Assembly: GCF_017304615.1 (NCBI RefSeq)
Contig: NZ_JAFKLZ010000002.1
Coordinates: 186,001 to 250,000 of the forward strand
Reading direction: 5' to 3'
DNA from: Sphingomonas sp.
Lineage (GTDB): Bacteria; Pseudomonadota; Alphaproteobacteria; Sphingomonadales; Sphingomonadaceae
DNA length: 64,000 nucleotides
Part shown: piece after piece, positions 38,778-42,709 of the stretch
Layout of the letters: every line of letters starts with the position of its first letter
Numbering within the stretch: the first letter of the stretch is position 1
Made by a program: the position numbers and the translations under genes
The notes under the pieces: model-generated
The model's input: only the letters and a program-made list of their open reading frames with translations
What the model was told of the DNA's origin: nothing
Database searches by the model: none

Positions 38778-39811
38778 CCGCCGATCCGCGATGGATGGGG
38801 GCCGCTCTGGCGCTCGCCGAACGCGGGCGAGGCGAAACCGCGCCCAATCCCAATGTCGGCTGCGTGATCGTCAAGGACGGTAAAGTCGTCGGGCGCGGCT
38901 GGACTCAGCCCGGCGGGCGGCCGCATGCCGAGGCGATGGCGCTGGCGGAGGCGGGCGACGCCGCGCGCGGGAGCACGGTCTACACGACTCTGGAGCCGTG
39001 CGCGCATGTCTCGCCCCGCGGGCCGGCGTGCAGCGACTTGCTGATCGCGGCGGGCGTGGCGGCAATTGTCGTCGCGCTCAGCGATCCCGATCCGCGCACC
39101 GATGGACGCGGGCACGACCGGTTGCGCGCGGCGGGGATCGCGGTCGAAACTGGCCTGCGGGCTGACGATGCGCGGCGGTCGATGGCAGGATTCCTGACGC
39201 GGCGGGCCTTGGGTCGACCCCATGTGACGCTCAAGCTCGCGACCTCGCTCGACGGTTGCATCGCGCTGGCGAACGGCGAGAGCAAATGGATCACCGGCGC
39301 CCCGGCGCGTGCGCACGCCCATGTCGAGCGATCGCGGCATGAGGCGATCCTGGTGGGACGTGGGACGTTTGAGACGGACAGCCCGGCCCTCGATGTGCGC
39401 CTGGCCGGGCTGGAGGATCGCAGCCCGCGCCGGGTTCTCCTTAGTCGTCATGCCGGCCTAGTGCCGGCATCCGCCGAGCCGCAGGCTATATCGCCCGAGG
39501 CGGCGCGGACCCCGGCACGAGGCCGGGGTGACGGTTGGGAGATGATCGATGCACCGGGCCAAATCACCGATCTCGAAAACGTCGACCACCTCCTCGTCGA
39601 AGGCGGGGCGCAGACCGCATCGGCATTCCTCGCCGCCGATCTGGTCGATCGCCTCCTGCTCTACCGCGCGCCGATCCTGATCGGCGGCGGCAAGTCCGCG
39701 ATCAGTGACATCGGCCTGACCGATCTTGCCGACGCGCATGGCCGCTGGCGGTTGCGCGACCGGCGGATGTTGGGCATCGATACTTTCGAAGAATTTGAAC
39801 GGGTGCGATAA
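38774..39811 (+). CDS. ribD: Bifunctional pyrimidine deaminase/reductase RibD, with in-frame repeat insertion
   Basis: A 345-residue two-domain enzyme for two early steps of riboflavin synthesis. The deaminase has NPNVGCVIVKDG, HAEAMAL and the zinc site TLEPCAHVSPRGPAC. The reductase has VTLKLATSLDG, NGESKWITG and VEGGAQTASAFL. Between RRVLLSRH and WEMIDAPG about 29 residues come from a palindromic repeat (39446-39534). The best start is CTG at 38774 (LTADPRW), which overlaps the previous stop by four bases. The first in-frame ATG (38795) would remove seven family-like residues. The gene overlaps ribE by one base. Confidence 0.93.
   Translation: MTADPRWMGAALALAERGRGETAPNPNVGCVIVKDGKVVGRGWTQPGGRPHAEAMALAEAGDAARGSTVYTTLEPCAHVSPRGPACSDLLIAAGVAAIVVALSDPDPRTDGRGHDRLRAAGIAVETGLRADDARRSMAGFLTRRALGRPHVTLKLATSLDGCIALANGESKWITGAPARAHAHVERSRHEAILVGRGTFETDSPALDVRLAGLEDRSPRRVLLSRHAGLVPASAEPQAISPEAARTPARGRGDGWEMIDAPGQITDLENVDHLLVEGGAQTASAFLAADLVDRLLLYRAPILIGGGKSAISDIGLTDLADAHGRWRLRDRRMLGIDTFEEFERVR
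39446..39534. repeat. Palindromic repeat inserted within ribD
   Basis: An 89-bp element beginning CGTCATGCCGG and ending CCGGGGTGACGG. Inner arms are CCGG-ccta-gtgCCGG, CCGCCGAG/CTCGGGCG-like and CCCCGGCacgaGGCCGGGG. It has the same outline as the intergenic copies at 15742 and 52164. Here it is translated as about residues 224-254 of RibD without breaking the frame. Confidence 0.8.
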
Positions 39812-40434
39812 TGTTCACCGGCATCATCACCGACATCGGCACGATCGAGAGCGTCGAGCAACGCGGCGACCTGCGCGTGCGGATCGCGACCGCGTACGAC
39901 ACCGCGACGATCGATCTCGGCGCGTCTATCTCGTGCTCGGGCGTGTGCCTGACTGTCATCGACAAATCCGGTCCGGAGGGGCCAGGCTGGTTCACCGTCG
40001 ACGTCTCCGGCGAAACCGTTTCGCGCAGCGCGCCGAGCCAGTGGAGCCAGGGCCGCAAGCTCAACCTCGAACGCGCGATGAAGCTGGGCGACGAACTCGG
40101 CGGCCATATCGTGACCGGCCATGTCGACGGCGTCGCGGAAGTACTCGGCATATGCGCGGACGGCGATTCGAAGCGGATCGGCTTTCGCTTGCCACCGGCC
40201 CTTGCGCCGTTCGTCGCCGCCAAGGGGTCGGTGACCGTCGATGGCGTGTCGCTGACCGTCAACCAGGTTCGCGATGCCGAGGATGGGACGCATTTCGCGG
40301 TCAACATCATCCCGCACACCCAGGCGGTGACGACGCTCGGCGCGATCGAGGCGGGCCAGGCGGTGAATATCGAGATCGACGTCCTCGCGCGCTATCTCCA
40401 GCGGATGCAGAGCCTGCTGCAAAAGCCAGCCTGA
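39811..40434 (+). CDS. ribE: Riboflavin synthase, alpha subunit
   Basis: A 207-residue enzyme that dismutates two lumazines to riboflavin. It contains the duplicated lumazine-binding domains beginning MFTGIITDIG and, in the second half, HIVTGHVDGVAEV. The conserved catalytic-site Cys pattern ISCSGVCLTV and VDGVSLTVN are present. The ATG overlaps the ribD stop by one base. It ends 50 bases before the HTH-RibB fusion gene. Confidence 0.96.
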   Translation: MFTGIITDIGTIESVEQRGDLRVRIATAYDTATIDLGASISCSGVCLTVIDKSGPEGPGWFTVDVSGETVSRSAPSQWSQGRKLNLERAMKLGDELGGHIVTGHVDGVAEVLGICADGDSKRIGFRLPPALAPFVAAKGSVTVDGVSLTVNQVRDAEDGTHFAVNIIPHTQAVTTLGAIEAGQAVNIEIDVLARYLQRMQSLLQKPA

Positions 40435-40447
40435 TGTGAAAATCATC

Positions 40448-40475
40448 TTGGCATATCACATTGTGATGTGATATT
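40448..40475 (+). promoter_or_regulatory. Candidate promoter of the HTH-RibB gene
   Basis: TTGGCA at 40448-40453 and GATATT at 40470-40475 are separated by 16 bases. A transcript would then begin about at the ATG at 40485, which would fit the absence of a ribosome-binding site, that is, a leaderless message. The call is by eye and moderate. Confidence 0.5.
40453..40474. promoter_or_regulatory. 22-bp inverted repeat, candidate operator
   Basis: Perfect 9-bp arms ATATCACAT and ATGTGATAT surround a TGTG spacer. The site covers the spacer and -10 of the candidate promoter and ends 10 bases before the start codon of a protein with an N-terminal Cro/C1-type DNA-binding domain. Autorepression is the obvious inference. 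Confidence 0.75.
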
Positions 40476-40484
40476 CGCCCGCTC

Positions 40485-41765
40485 ATGAGCACGATGCTGA
40501 TCGATCGCGTTCGCGATCTCGTCGCCTCGGGCGGGATTTCCCGCTCCGGGCTTGCCCGCGCCGCCGGGCTCCACGCCAATTCGCTGCGCAGCCTCGACGA
40601 GCAGGAATGGAATCCCACCGCCGACACGCTGAAGAAGCTCGAAAGCTACCTCACCCAGCGCGAGAAACGCCCCGCGCTCGTGCCCATCGAGGAGATCATC
40701 GAGGAAGCTCGGAACGGCCGCATGTTCATCCTGGTCGACGACGAGGATCGCGAGAACGAGGGCGACCTGATCGTCCCCGCGCAGATGGCAACTCCCGACG
40801 CGATCAACTTCATGGCGAAGCACGGCCGCGGCCTCATCTGCCTCGCCTTGACCAAGGATCGCGTCGATCAGCTCGGCCTCGAACTGATGAGCCGCAACAA
40901 CGGCACGCGCCACGAAACCGCCTTCACCGTCTCGATCGAGGCGCGCGAAGGCGTTACCACCGGTATCTCCGCGCACGACCGCGCGCGCACCGTGTCGGTC
41001 GCGATCGACGCCTCCAAGCACAAGCAGGACATCGTCACGCCAGGCCATGTCTTCCCGCTGGTCGCGCGCGACGGCGGCGTGCTGGTCCGCGCCGGGCATA
41101 CCGAGGCGGCGGTCGACGTCTCGCGGCTGGCCGGCCTCAACCCCTCTGGCGTGATCTGCGAGATCATGAAGGACGACGGCACGATGGCGCGGATGGACGA
41201 TTTGATTGCCTTCGCCGAAACGCACCGGCTGAAGATCGGCACGATCCGCGACCTGATCGCCTATCGCCGCCAGCACGACCACCTCGTGGAGCGCCGTGCC
41301 GAGGCGCGCTTCACCAGCCGCTGGGGCGGCGAGTGGCTGGCCCGCACCTATTATAACAAGGCGACCGGCACCGAGCAGGTCGCGTTGATCAAGGGCCGCA
41401 TCGATCCCGACAAGCCGACTTTGGTCCGCATGCACGCCATGAACCTGTTCGCCGACACGTTCGGCGAACAGGGCGATCGTGGACGAATACTCGAGCGGTC
41501 GATGGAATTGATCGGGGCCGCCGGGTCCGGCGTCGTGGTACTGCTGTCGACCGGCGGCGGCACGGGGGCGTTCAGCCAGGCGCTCCAGCAAAAGGCTGGT
41601 GGCCCGGCGAGTGAGGAGATACGCGATTATGGCGTCGGCGCTCAGATCCTGACCGAACTCGGGATCGACGACATGATCCTGCTGACCAACACCCACCACA
41701 CGCTGGTCGCGCTCGACGGTTACGGCCTGTCGATCGTCGGCGAGCGCGCGATCACGGCGGGATGA
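40485..41765 (+). CDS. ribB: HTH - 3,4-dihydroxy-2-butanone 4-phosphate synthase - degenerate GTP cyclohydrolase II fusion
   Basis: A 426-residue protein in three parts. Residues 5-57 form a Cro/C1-like helix-turn-helix ([21 protein letters not shown], then [14 protein letters not shown]). Residues 66-265 are a complete DHBP synthase with [21 protein letters not shown] and [11 protein letters not shown]. Residues from about 275 resemble GTP cyclohydrolase II but lack its zinc cysteines: the HSECLTGD-like segment reads HAMNLFADT, and no CDC pair follows. The protein should thus make the four-carbon precursor of lumazine but not open GTP. It may also bind the palindrome before its own gene. Confidence 0.92.
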
Positions 41766-42709
41766 GCATGCGCTCCGCCGCCACCGAGGCGGCAGATCCC
41801 AAATATGCGTTCGTGGAGCGCGAGCGGCGCTGGCGGATCGATCCTGCCCGCCGCCCGTCGCTCGACGGCCTGCGCGCGGTCCTGATCGAGGACCGCTATC
41901 TGACCGGGACGCGCTGCCGGCTGCGGCGGGTGACCGAGGCCGGGACCGGCGAGACCGTGGTCAAGCTGACGCGCAAGTACGACGCGCCGGATCCGCTCGC
42001 CCGCCCGATCGTCACCGCCTATCTGGACGAGGTGGAATACGCGCTGTTCGCGACGCTGCCGGCGCTGCCGCTGACGAAGCGCCGCTACGCCGTGGTGCAG
42101 GACGGCGCGACGTGGAGCGTCGATCGCTACGAAGGCGCATTGGCGGGGCTGGAGACGGCCGAGATCGAATGGCCCGACGATGCTGGCCTCCGTACGCTCG
42201 TGGCGCCCGCCTGGTTCGGCCGCGACGTCAGCACCGATCCACGCTATCAGGGCGCCTCGCTCGCCCGACACGGCAACCCGAGGAGTAACATGGCCCATAT
42301 CCTGATCGTCGAAGCGCGGTTCTACGACCATCTCAACGACATGCTGCTCGCCGGCGCGCGCGCGGCGATTGAGGCGGCCGGGCACAGCCACGAGACGATG
42401 ACCGTGCCCGGCGCGCTCGAAGCTCCCGGCGCGATCGCGCTCGCGGTCGAGACCGGGCGCTACGACGCGTTCGTCGCGCTCGGCGTGGTGATCCGCGGCG
42501 AGACCTATCATTTCGAGATCGTAAGCAACGAAAGCGCGCGCGGCATCATGGCGCTGACGATGGACGGCATCGCGATCGGCAACGGGATCCTGACCACCGA
42601 GGACGAAGCCCAGGCGATCGTCCGCGCCGATCCGGTGCAGCTCGACAAGGGCGGCGGCGCGGCCAAGGCGGCGCTTGCAATGCTGGCGCTGAAAGAACGC
42701 TTCGGCTGA
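41762..42709 (+). CDS. CYTH domain - lumazine synthase (RibH) in-frame fusion
   Basis: A 315-residue open frame beginning at an ATG that overlaps the ribB stop (ATGA). Residues 15-165 form a CYTH triphosphate-tunnel domain ([46 protein letters not shown]). The usual ExExK motif reads E-R-E-R-R, so Lys is Arg. With no stop codon in between, residues 177-315 are complete lumazine synthase. An AGGAG and ATG lie exactly at the junction, so RibH may be made alone, as the fusion, or both. A lost stop codon or a one-base assembly error is the alternative. Confidence 0.8.
42290..42709 (+). CDS. ribH: 6,7-dimethyl-8-ribityllumazine synthase (internal start)
   Basis: A 139-residue enzyme condensing the RibB product with aminoribityl-uracil to lumazine. 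It has [46 protein letters not shown] with the catalytic His, and [17 protein letters not shown] lies four bases before this ATG. The length equals a normal RibH, so independent initiation inside the longer CYTH frame is likely. It completes the ribD-ribE-ribB-ribH set; no ribA with zinc ligands is in the window. Confidence 0.9.

Follow-up and report, generated by a model that had tools for sequence, protein, structure and literature searches.

A probable autorepressor in sphingomonad flavin synthesis: DHBP synthase joined to a Cro-like DNA-binding domain and its operator

The DHBP synthase (RibB) encoded in a 64,000-nucleotide stretch of a Sphingomonas genome (the window) begins with a Cro/C1-like helix-turn-helix (HTH) domain, and a perfect palindrome lies in the promoter-like site of its gene. 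This arrangement is probably best explained by the fusion of a phage Cro module, comprising promoter, operator and HTH domain, to ribB, which would have made RibB an autorepressor. On the best reading, the fusion dates to early in the window's family, the sphingomonads, an identification of the sampled family that rests on named relatives among the search matches. The phage module appears to have been acquired entire, with promoter, operator, recognition helix and distance to the start codon, and to persist in 239 of the 298 species sampled; in the window's genome it sits before the sole DHBP synthase found by protein search and with the Pfam profile PF00926. Since the enzyme gene is still preceded by the DNA switch of what looks like a captured repressor, its product probably represses it.

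The locus is composed of the following features, given in window coordinates.

39811 to 40434, plus strand: riboflavin synthase gene (ribE) with two Lum_binding stretches (Pfam), directly upstream of HTH-ribB
40423 to 40440, no strand: distal operator position, 32 bp upstream (direct repeat, spacing 32), overlapping the ribE stop codon
40448 to 40475, plus strand: promoter-like site TTGGCA-16-GATATT with TG before the second hexamer (promoter scan)
40453 to 40474, no strand: proximal operator, perfect palindrome ATATCACAT-TGTG-ATGTGATAT (9+4+9; repeat search)
40485 to 41765, plus strand: HTH-RibB(X) gene, ATG start, 426-aa ORF
40485 to 40652, plus strand: Cro/C1-like HTH domain, residues 1-56 (PHROG 8, NCBIfam aMBF1, alignment, Foldseek)
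40569 to 40592, plus strand: presumed recognition helix LHANSLRS, residues 29-36 (alignment of 47 relatives)
40689 to 41264, plus strand: DHBP synthase (RibB) domain, residues 69-260, motifs intact (Pfam and alignment to solved chains)
41292 to 41744, plus strand: GTP cyclohydrolase II (GCHII)-like domain, residues 270-420, lacking the zinc cysteines (Pfam and alignment)
42292 to 42709, plus strand: ribH (DMRL synthase), within the ORF 41762-42709 (Pfam)

The initial annotation had placed a complete catalytic domain behind the HTH, which is borne out by the match of residues 69-260 to PF00926 (E 3e-85, 285 bits against a curated cut-off of 26.4) and by intact motifs; the same ORF also lies above the cut-off of TIGR00506 (241.5 against 177.45 bits). 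The RibB motifs, including GHTEA, align with those of solved RibB chains, and DHBP synthase activity is predicted. The nearest solved chain is PDB 6mnz, which is matched by residues 66-418 from its residue 4 onward. The C-terminal domain is recognised by PF00925 with E 3.2e-34, but its 58 bits fall far short of the 205.85 required by the ribA equivalog model, and the cysteines of ECLTGD..CDCG in the RibBA chain 4i14 are lost at the aligned place, which makes the protein RibBX-type. The zinc motif C-x(8,14)-CxC was found in none of the 86 fetched relatives with the HTH and none of the nine without it, and is present in the separate RibA of the window's genome. This RibA (L193, 1426-2493, minus strand) occupies a 355-aa frame including an additional N-terminal part. 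Upstream, a ribD gene was recognised by eye. The ORF 41762-42709 starts with a 176-aa part that resembles CYTH proteins by eye, for which Pfam gave no match at E ≤ 1, and continues into ribH; as ribH has its own ATG at 42292 preceded by GAGGAG, the ORF may represent a fusion or an overlap.

The HTH, which the initial annotation had located at residues 5-57, was confirmed at about residues 1-56 by PHROG 8 'transcriptional regulator' (E 4.4e-6 against residues 1-56), by NCBIfam aMBF1 (E 4.4e-4 against residues 8-56) and by matches to HTH_3 at E ≤ 0.01 in 13 of 47 aligned relatives. Within the presumed recognition helix, L29, H30, N32, L34 and R35 are invariant across these 47 sequences. Single-sequence Pfam scores stayed below the cut-offs (HTH_3 15.3 of 23 bits, HTH_26 15.4 of 22, E 0.02), and the window's own 66-aa piece alone gave no Pfam match at E ≤ 0.01. 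When the AlphaFold2 model of residues 1-66 was searched with Foldseek, the first 26 ranks went to HTH proteins, mostly of the XRE type, with probabilities of 0.96-0.99 and a lowest E-value of 0.16; in the AlphaFold2 models, built from shallow alignments, residues 28-45, the expected recognition-helix region, received no H assignment. The HTH profile matched no PDB sequence at E ≤ 0.01, and a single-sequence PDB search returned an XRE regulator at 0.04 among chance matches to T4 lysozyme (best 0.019).

The proximal palindrome ends 10 nt before the ATG of HTH-ribB, and its core ATCACATTGTGATGTGAT (40455-40472) starts 30 nt before it. It occupies the spacer of the predicted promoter-like site, of which one was found against 0.1 expected, and overlaps the -10 hexamer. 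The window follows the arrangement of Cro-like systems, with one palindrome in the promoter of the gene itself and another about 31 bp further up; its distal copy has one good half-site, the right one (ATGTGA), and matches 9 of 14 positions by eye. Across the 3.34-Mb genome of the window, the 20-mer operator occurs once perfectly and once at three mismatches, and the reversed pattern not at all. The sole extra site (C8:105014, three mismatches), in or beside genes resembling an alanine racemase and an MFS transporter by eye, was considered for a wider regulon and treated as chance.

These positions suggest how the circuit may work. The N-terminal HTH would derive from a phage Cro-like repressor, whose promoter-operator the gene would retain. 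A RibB dimer would contact ATCACATnnnnATGTGAT, which takes up the promoter spacer and runs into the -10 box, with both recognition helices, and a second dimer could bind the site 31-32 bp, or three helical turns, upstream. Bound RibB would block RNA polymerase at its own promoter, and enough RibB protein would therefore switch off ribB and the co-transcribed downstream genes, perhaps up to ribH. The simplest such circuit would be concentration-dependent negative autoregulation replacing the FMN riboswitch. More speculatively, a ligand bound to the RibB site or to the dead GCHII-like domain may tune repression.

The operator is conserved across the family. The sample consisted of 80 ribB loci hand-picked from the best-scoring places listed, among them the five listed ones that lack the HTH, and leans to near relatives because of this choice; with 15 named loci and the window added, it comprised 87 loci with the HTH (86 distinct) and nine without. 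Within 150 nt upstream, ATCACATnnnnATGTGAT was matched at 11 or more of its 14 positions in 84 of the 87 HTH-bearing loci (84 of 86 distinct), the three misses scoring 10/14, and at none of the nine HTH-less ribB genes. As the start codons of the latter are unsure, the search of their regions was widened to begin 400 nt ahead of the enzyme domain, and gave a best score of 9/14. Among controls, at least 11/14 was reached by 2 of 2887 150-nt segments elsewhere in the HTH-bearing loci and the window; of 4350 upstream regions with shuffled bases, 18 did so. The operator starts 27-33 nt before the chosen start in 57 of the 87. Of 55 loci that have a proximal site, 31 show a second one of at least 9/14 at 31-32 bp upstream, a score reached in 6 of 770 cases when other offsets are taken; this distal site is often degenerate among HTH-bearing loci. 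Measured between alignment ends and chosen starts rather than proven gene ends, ribE lies within 400 nt upstream of 37 of the 86 fetched HTH-bearing genes (46-316 nt past the end of the ribE alignment) and upstream of seven of the nine HTH-less genes (at -50 to +7).

The same association holds on the level of genomes. The enzyme was matched in 294 of 298 family genomes, and a family-wide profile search of the kind suggested in the initial annotation placed the HTH (66 positions, E ≤ 3.9e-22) in the 239 mentioned above, a count of 241 matches minus G027 and G230 (about 1e-4); among the HTH matches listed, every one lies within an open frame of at least 417 aa, a recurrence beyond chance. The strict operator (at most one mismatch) occurs in 161 of the 298 genomes, against 10 for the reversed pattern by hand count. 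It is present in 156 of 239 genomes with the HTH and 5 of 59 without it, the 59 including four without an enzyme match (Fisher p 3.7e-16, with genomes that are not independent and lists copied by hand). In 83 of the 239, a site at this stringency is absent, and to some of these genomes the looser local criterion was applied. For 67 of 75 sites listed, the position of the gene is known, and 63 of the 67 fall within 150 bp upstream of it. One genome without an enzyme match (G067) has one operator-like site. Across 385 genomes sampled from the class, strong HTH matches (E ≤ 1.3e-32) numbered four, all in the window's family; nine weaker ones have E ≥ 7.5e-10 in open frames of 78-749 aa, of which L199 and L200 and, briefly, L201 were inspected. 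A wider profile (A4) hit 56 of the 385, mainly general XRE proteins judging by E-value and frame length.

In a tree built from 105 RibB domains (12 outgroup sequences included), the HTH-less family members fall among the HTH-bearing ones, and the distribution of the HTH needs six changes, which are read as one gain followed by repeated losses. Operator and HTH disagree in three of the 105 rows (L157, L011 and L169, the first two from one species). In four well-supported independent pairs, the operator follows the HTH in 3.8 on average and never runs opposite, four pairs being a number with which a sign test is out of reach of significance.

Counterparts of the module are found in phages. A search of viral contigs with the HTH alignment gave four relatives, the closest on L208, where a stand-alone HTH protein of 68 aa (start 1501, helix GLHPNTLRDV) is encoded opposite a repressor-like gene and is preceded by ATCCCATcttgATGTGAT and ATCACATtcagATGTGTT, 31 bp apart. 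Taken alone, such an operator pair at three mismatches is not rare, appearing in 42 of 200 shuffles of L208. Scanning IMG/VR for the double operator, at the DNA level alone, returned 18 contigs, among which the L208 phage is not independent because the pattern was designed with L208 in view. Five of the 18 encode an HTH relative (L236, which is the L208 phage; L232; L237; and the near-identical L233 and L235), with profile E-values from 9e-24 to 7e-16 and LHPN[ST]L helices. The remaining 13 (L228-L231, L234, L238-L245), with no HTH relative in the contig stretch searched, may be chance matches or belong to other regulators. The reversed double-operator pattern returned five contigs with one weak profile match (E 0.0037).

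All five HTH-encoding contigs carry one operator pair directly upstream of the HTH gene and a second pair 0.7-2.8 kb off. Their promoters have a TTG in common between the two sites, and the operators start 30 and 61 nt before the ATG; the window's operator core stands at -30. The gene enclosed by the operator pairs contains a Peptidase_S24 domain (Pfam) in L232 and L237, and in L237 YqaJ and AAA genes continue after the switch region. Small HTH protein, paired upstream operators and a second pair elsewhere (L236, L232, L233, L235, L237) recall Cro of lambda-type phages, as does the S24-type repressor opposite the HTH gene in L232 and L237. Unlike phage Cro, the Cro-like part in ribB is the N-terminal domain of an enzyme, and HTH-ribB in the window is flanked by rib genes on both sides, with no CI-like neighbour. 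A nucleotide search of the phage region against named phages gave two partial matches, each covering 3% of the query.

Where the recognition helix of a relative differs, the palindrome upstream mostly differs too. Ten genomes were re-searched for free HTH copies, of which L222 and L223 were useful and the rest weak. Helices of the form [LI]H[RH]NTL (L222, L223 and the phage Pan3, L251) go with the operator GCATATnnnnATATGC, the 18-mer starting at -30 to -33, while [KNS]DTTL helices (L210, L211, L199) go with ATGCGAT half-sites that are less regularly placed. L288, found only after the helix and operator groups had been defined, fits the covariation, with the helix LHHNTL and two copies of AGCATATtccgATATGCT, at -30 and at -61; L285 has a different helix and a different palindrome. 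No convincing operator palindrome was found in the upstream regions of L200 and L209. This natural series of helices and operators, which spans class I (LHAN) and class II (LHRN) helices and palindromes of the ATCACAT and GCATAT types, could be used for studies of specificity. In Pseudanabaena phage Pan3 (ON968454.1), the Cro-like gene with its own palindrome (L251, 4001-4180) is unannotated and lies on the strand opposite to the annotated CDS.

Covariation also bears on whether the palindrome belongs to RibB at all. It might serve another regulator, of the CRP/FNR type or an unlinked XRE protein, with the RibB HTH as a relic or an oligomerisation module, and the TGTGA/TCACA half-sites do resemble the half-site of E. 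coli CRP; their order, TCACA-N6-TGTGA, is the inverse of a CRP site. A foreign regulator is further hard to reconcile with an operator that tracks the HTH across loci and genomes, is nearly unique in the window's genome, precedes a related HTH gene in phages and differs with the recognition helix, or with helix residues 29, 30, 32, 34 and 35 staying invariant in 47 relatives, and we regard this reading as very unlikely. Somewhat less improbable, and still unlikely, is that HTH and operator arose at ribB and were acquired by phages, or that the two converged. In the HTH tree (66 columns), free proteins of classes I and II stand among the ribB HTHs with two changes, a topology that agrees with such a transfer and leaves its direction unsettled. 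Capture from phage to host is favoured by relatives with other helices, which also occur in phages and, elsewhere in the class, as short proteins on their own, most of them with their own upstream palindrome (not L200 and L209), by the S24-type repressor opposite in the two phages checked by Pfam, which is the ordinary state of a phage switch, and by the confinement of strong HTH matches in the 385 class-wide genomes to one family. Convergence would need sequence, ATG distance and spacing to be reproduced together.

A further alternative, in line with the sensing of substrate or flavin level proposed in the initial annotation, concerns what RibB responds to: ribulose 5-phosphate, GTP, FMN or riboflavin, bound to the RibB site or the dead GCHII domain, might switch DNA binding, with sensing as the main function. 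The GCHII-like domain has been kept in spite of its lost zinc cysteines, a separate RibA with the cysteines exists in the window's genome, and PutA offers a precedent among other enzymes (PMC8249747). As the zinc motif is equally absent from HTH-less relatives, the degenerate domain was not acquired for gating, and gating as the main function seems doubtful, though the best placed of these alternatives. Concentration-dependent autorepression by a captured phage Cro module remains the preferred reading. It has a possible corollary: recognising the same operators as class I phages (L208/L236, L232, L233/L235, L237), RibB could bind at the two operator pairs when a phage of this class enters and act as a built-in immunity repressor, and the CI or Cro of a resident phage could in turn repress host ribB. 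We hold this to be quite improbable; phage switches and host metabolism would then be open to cross-talk.

Enzymes with a second role as repressor have been described before; what HTH-RibB would add is a phage regulatory module that was apparently captured. PutA, BirA and NadR are described as trigger enzymes, and PutA bound only the putA-putP spacer in one screen (both PMC8249747). The single spacer bound by PutA is paralleled by the nearly single operator site in the window's genome. With an enzyme domain and a predicted DNA-binding domain on one chain, HTH-RibB would likewise count as a trigger enzyme; the enzymes differ, and so do the DNA-binding folds, PutA having a ribbon-helix-helix and BirA a winged helix. 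We know of no trigger enzyme with a phage Cro-type domain plus its operator, and HTH-RibB may be a worked example of how an enzyme could turn repressor in one step. The nearest flavin example is the archaeal RbkR, in which a winged HTH is joined to a CTP-dependent riboflavin kinase and which regulates riboflavin genes; it shares with HTH-RibB the union of a flavin-pathway enzyme and an HTH, and differs in enzyme, domain of life and operator, which is unrelated. RibBX proteins, RibBA with a non-functional RibA-type domain, share the DHBP synthase and the GCHII-like domain without zinc cysteines and, to our knowledge, lack an HTH. In the titles and abstract openings of the open-access papers covered by the literature searches, no HTH-RibB fusion, no Cro-type domain in a vitamin enzyme and no such operator was found; the available part of PMC5343134 has no occurrence of riboflavin or ribB, and that of PMC12542839 none of helix-turn-helix, RbkR, autoregul or Sphingomonas.

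FMN riboswitches (RF00050) likewise exert feedback control of rib genes, which here would be protein- and DNA-based instead. The initial annotation had proposed control of the gene by its own DNA-binding product rather than by an FMN riboswitch; no RF00050 match was found in the window or its genome, and the conserved operator, its co-occurrence with the HTH and the helix-operator covariation lend strong comparative support to own-gene control, which is predicted on these grounds. That annotation had recognised the HTH and had noticed neither the operator and the pseudo-GCHII domain nor the family-wide norm and the connection to phage cro. If correct, autorepression would explain how flavin synthesis is controlled in a family almost without FMN riboswitches. 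Among the 298 family genomes, one carries such an element above the cut-off (G164, C1:1158050-1158199, L289; 121.7 bits), placed before ribD by eye; this genome lacks the HTH, its enzyme match is distant (6.6e-91), and it represents a single case of possible replacement between riboswitch and HTH.
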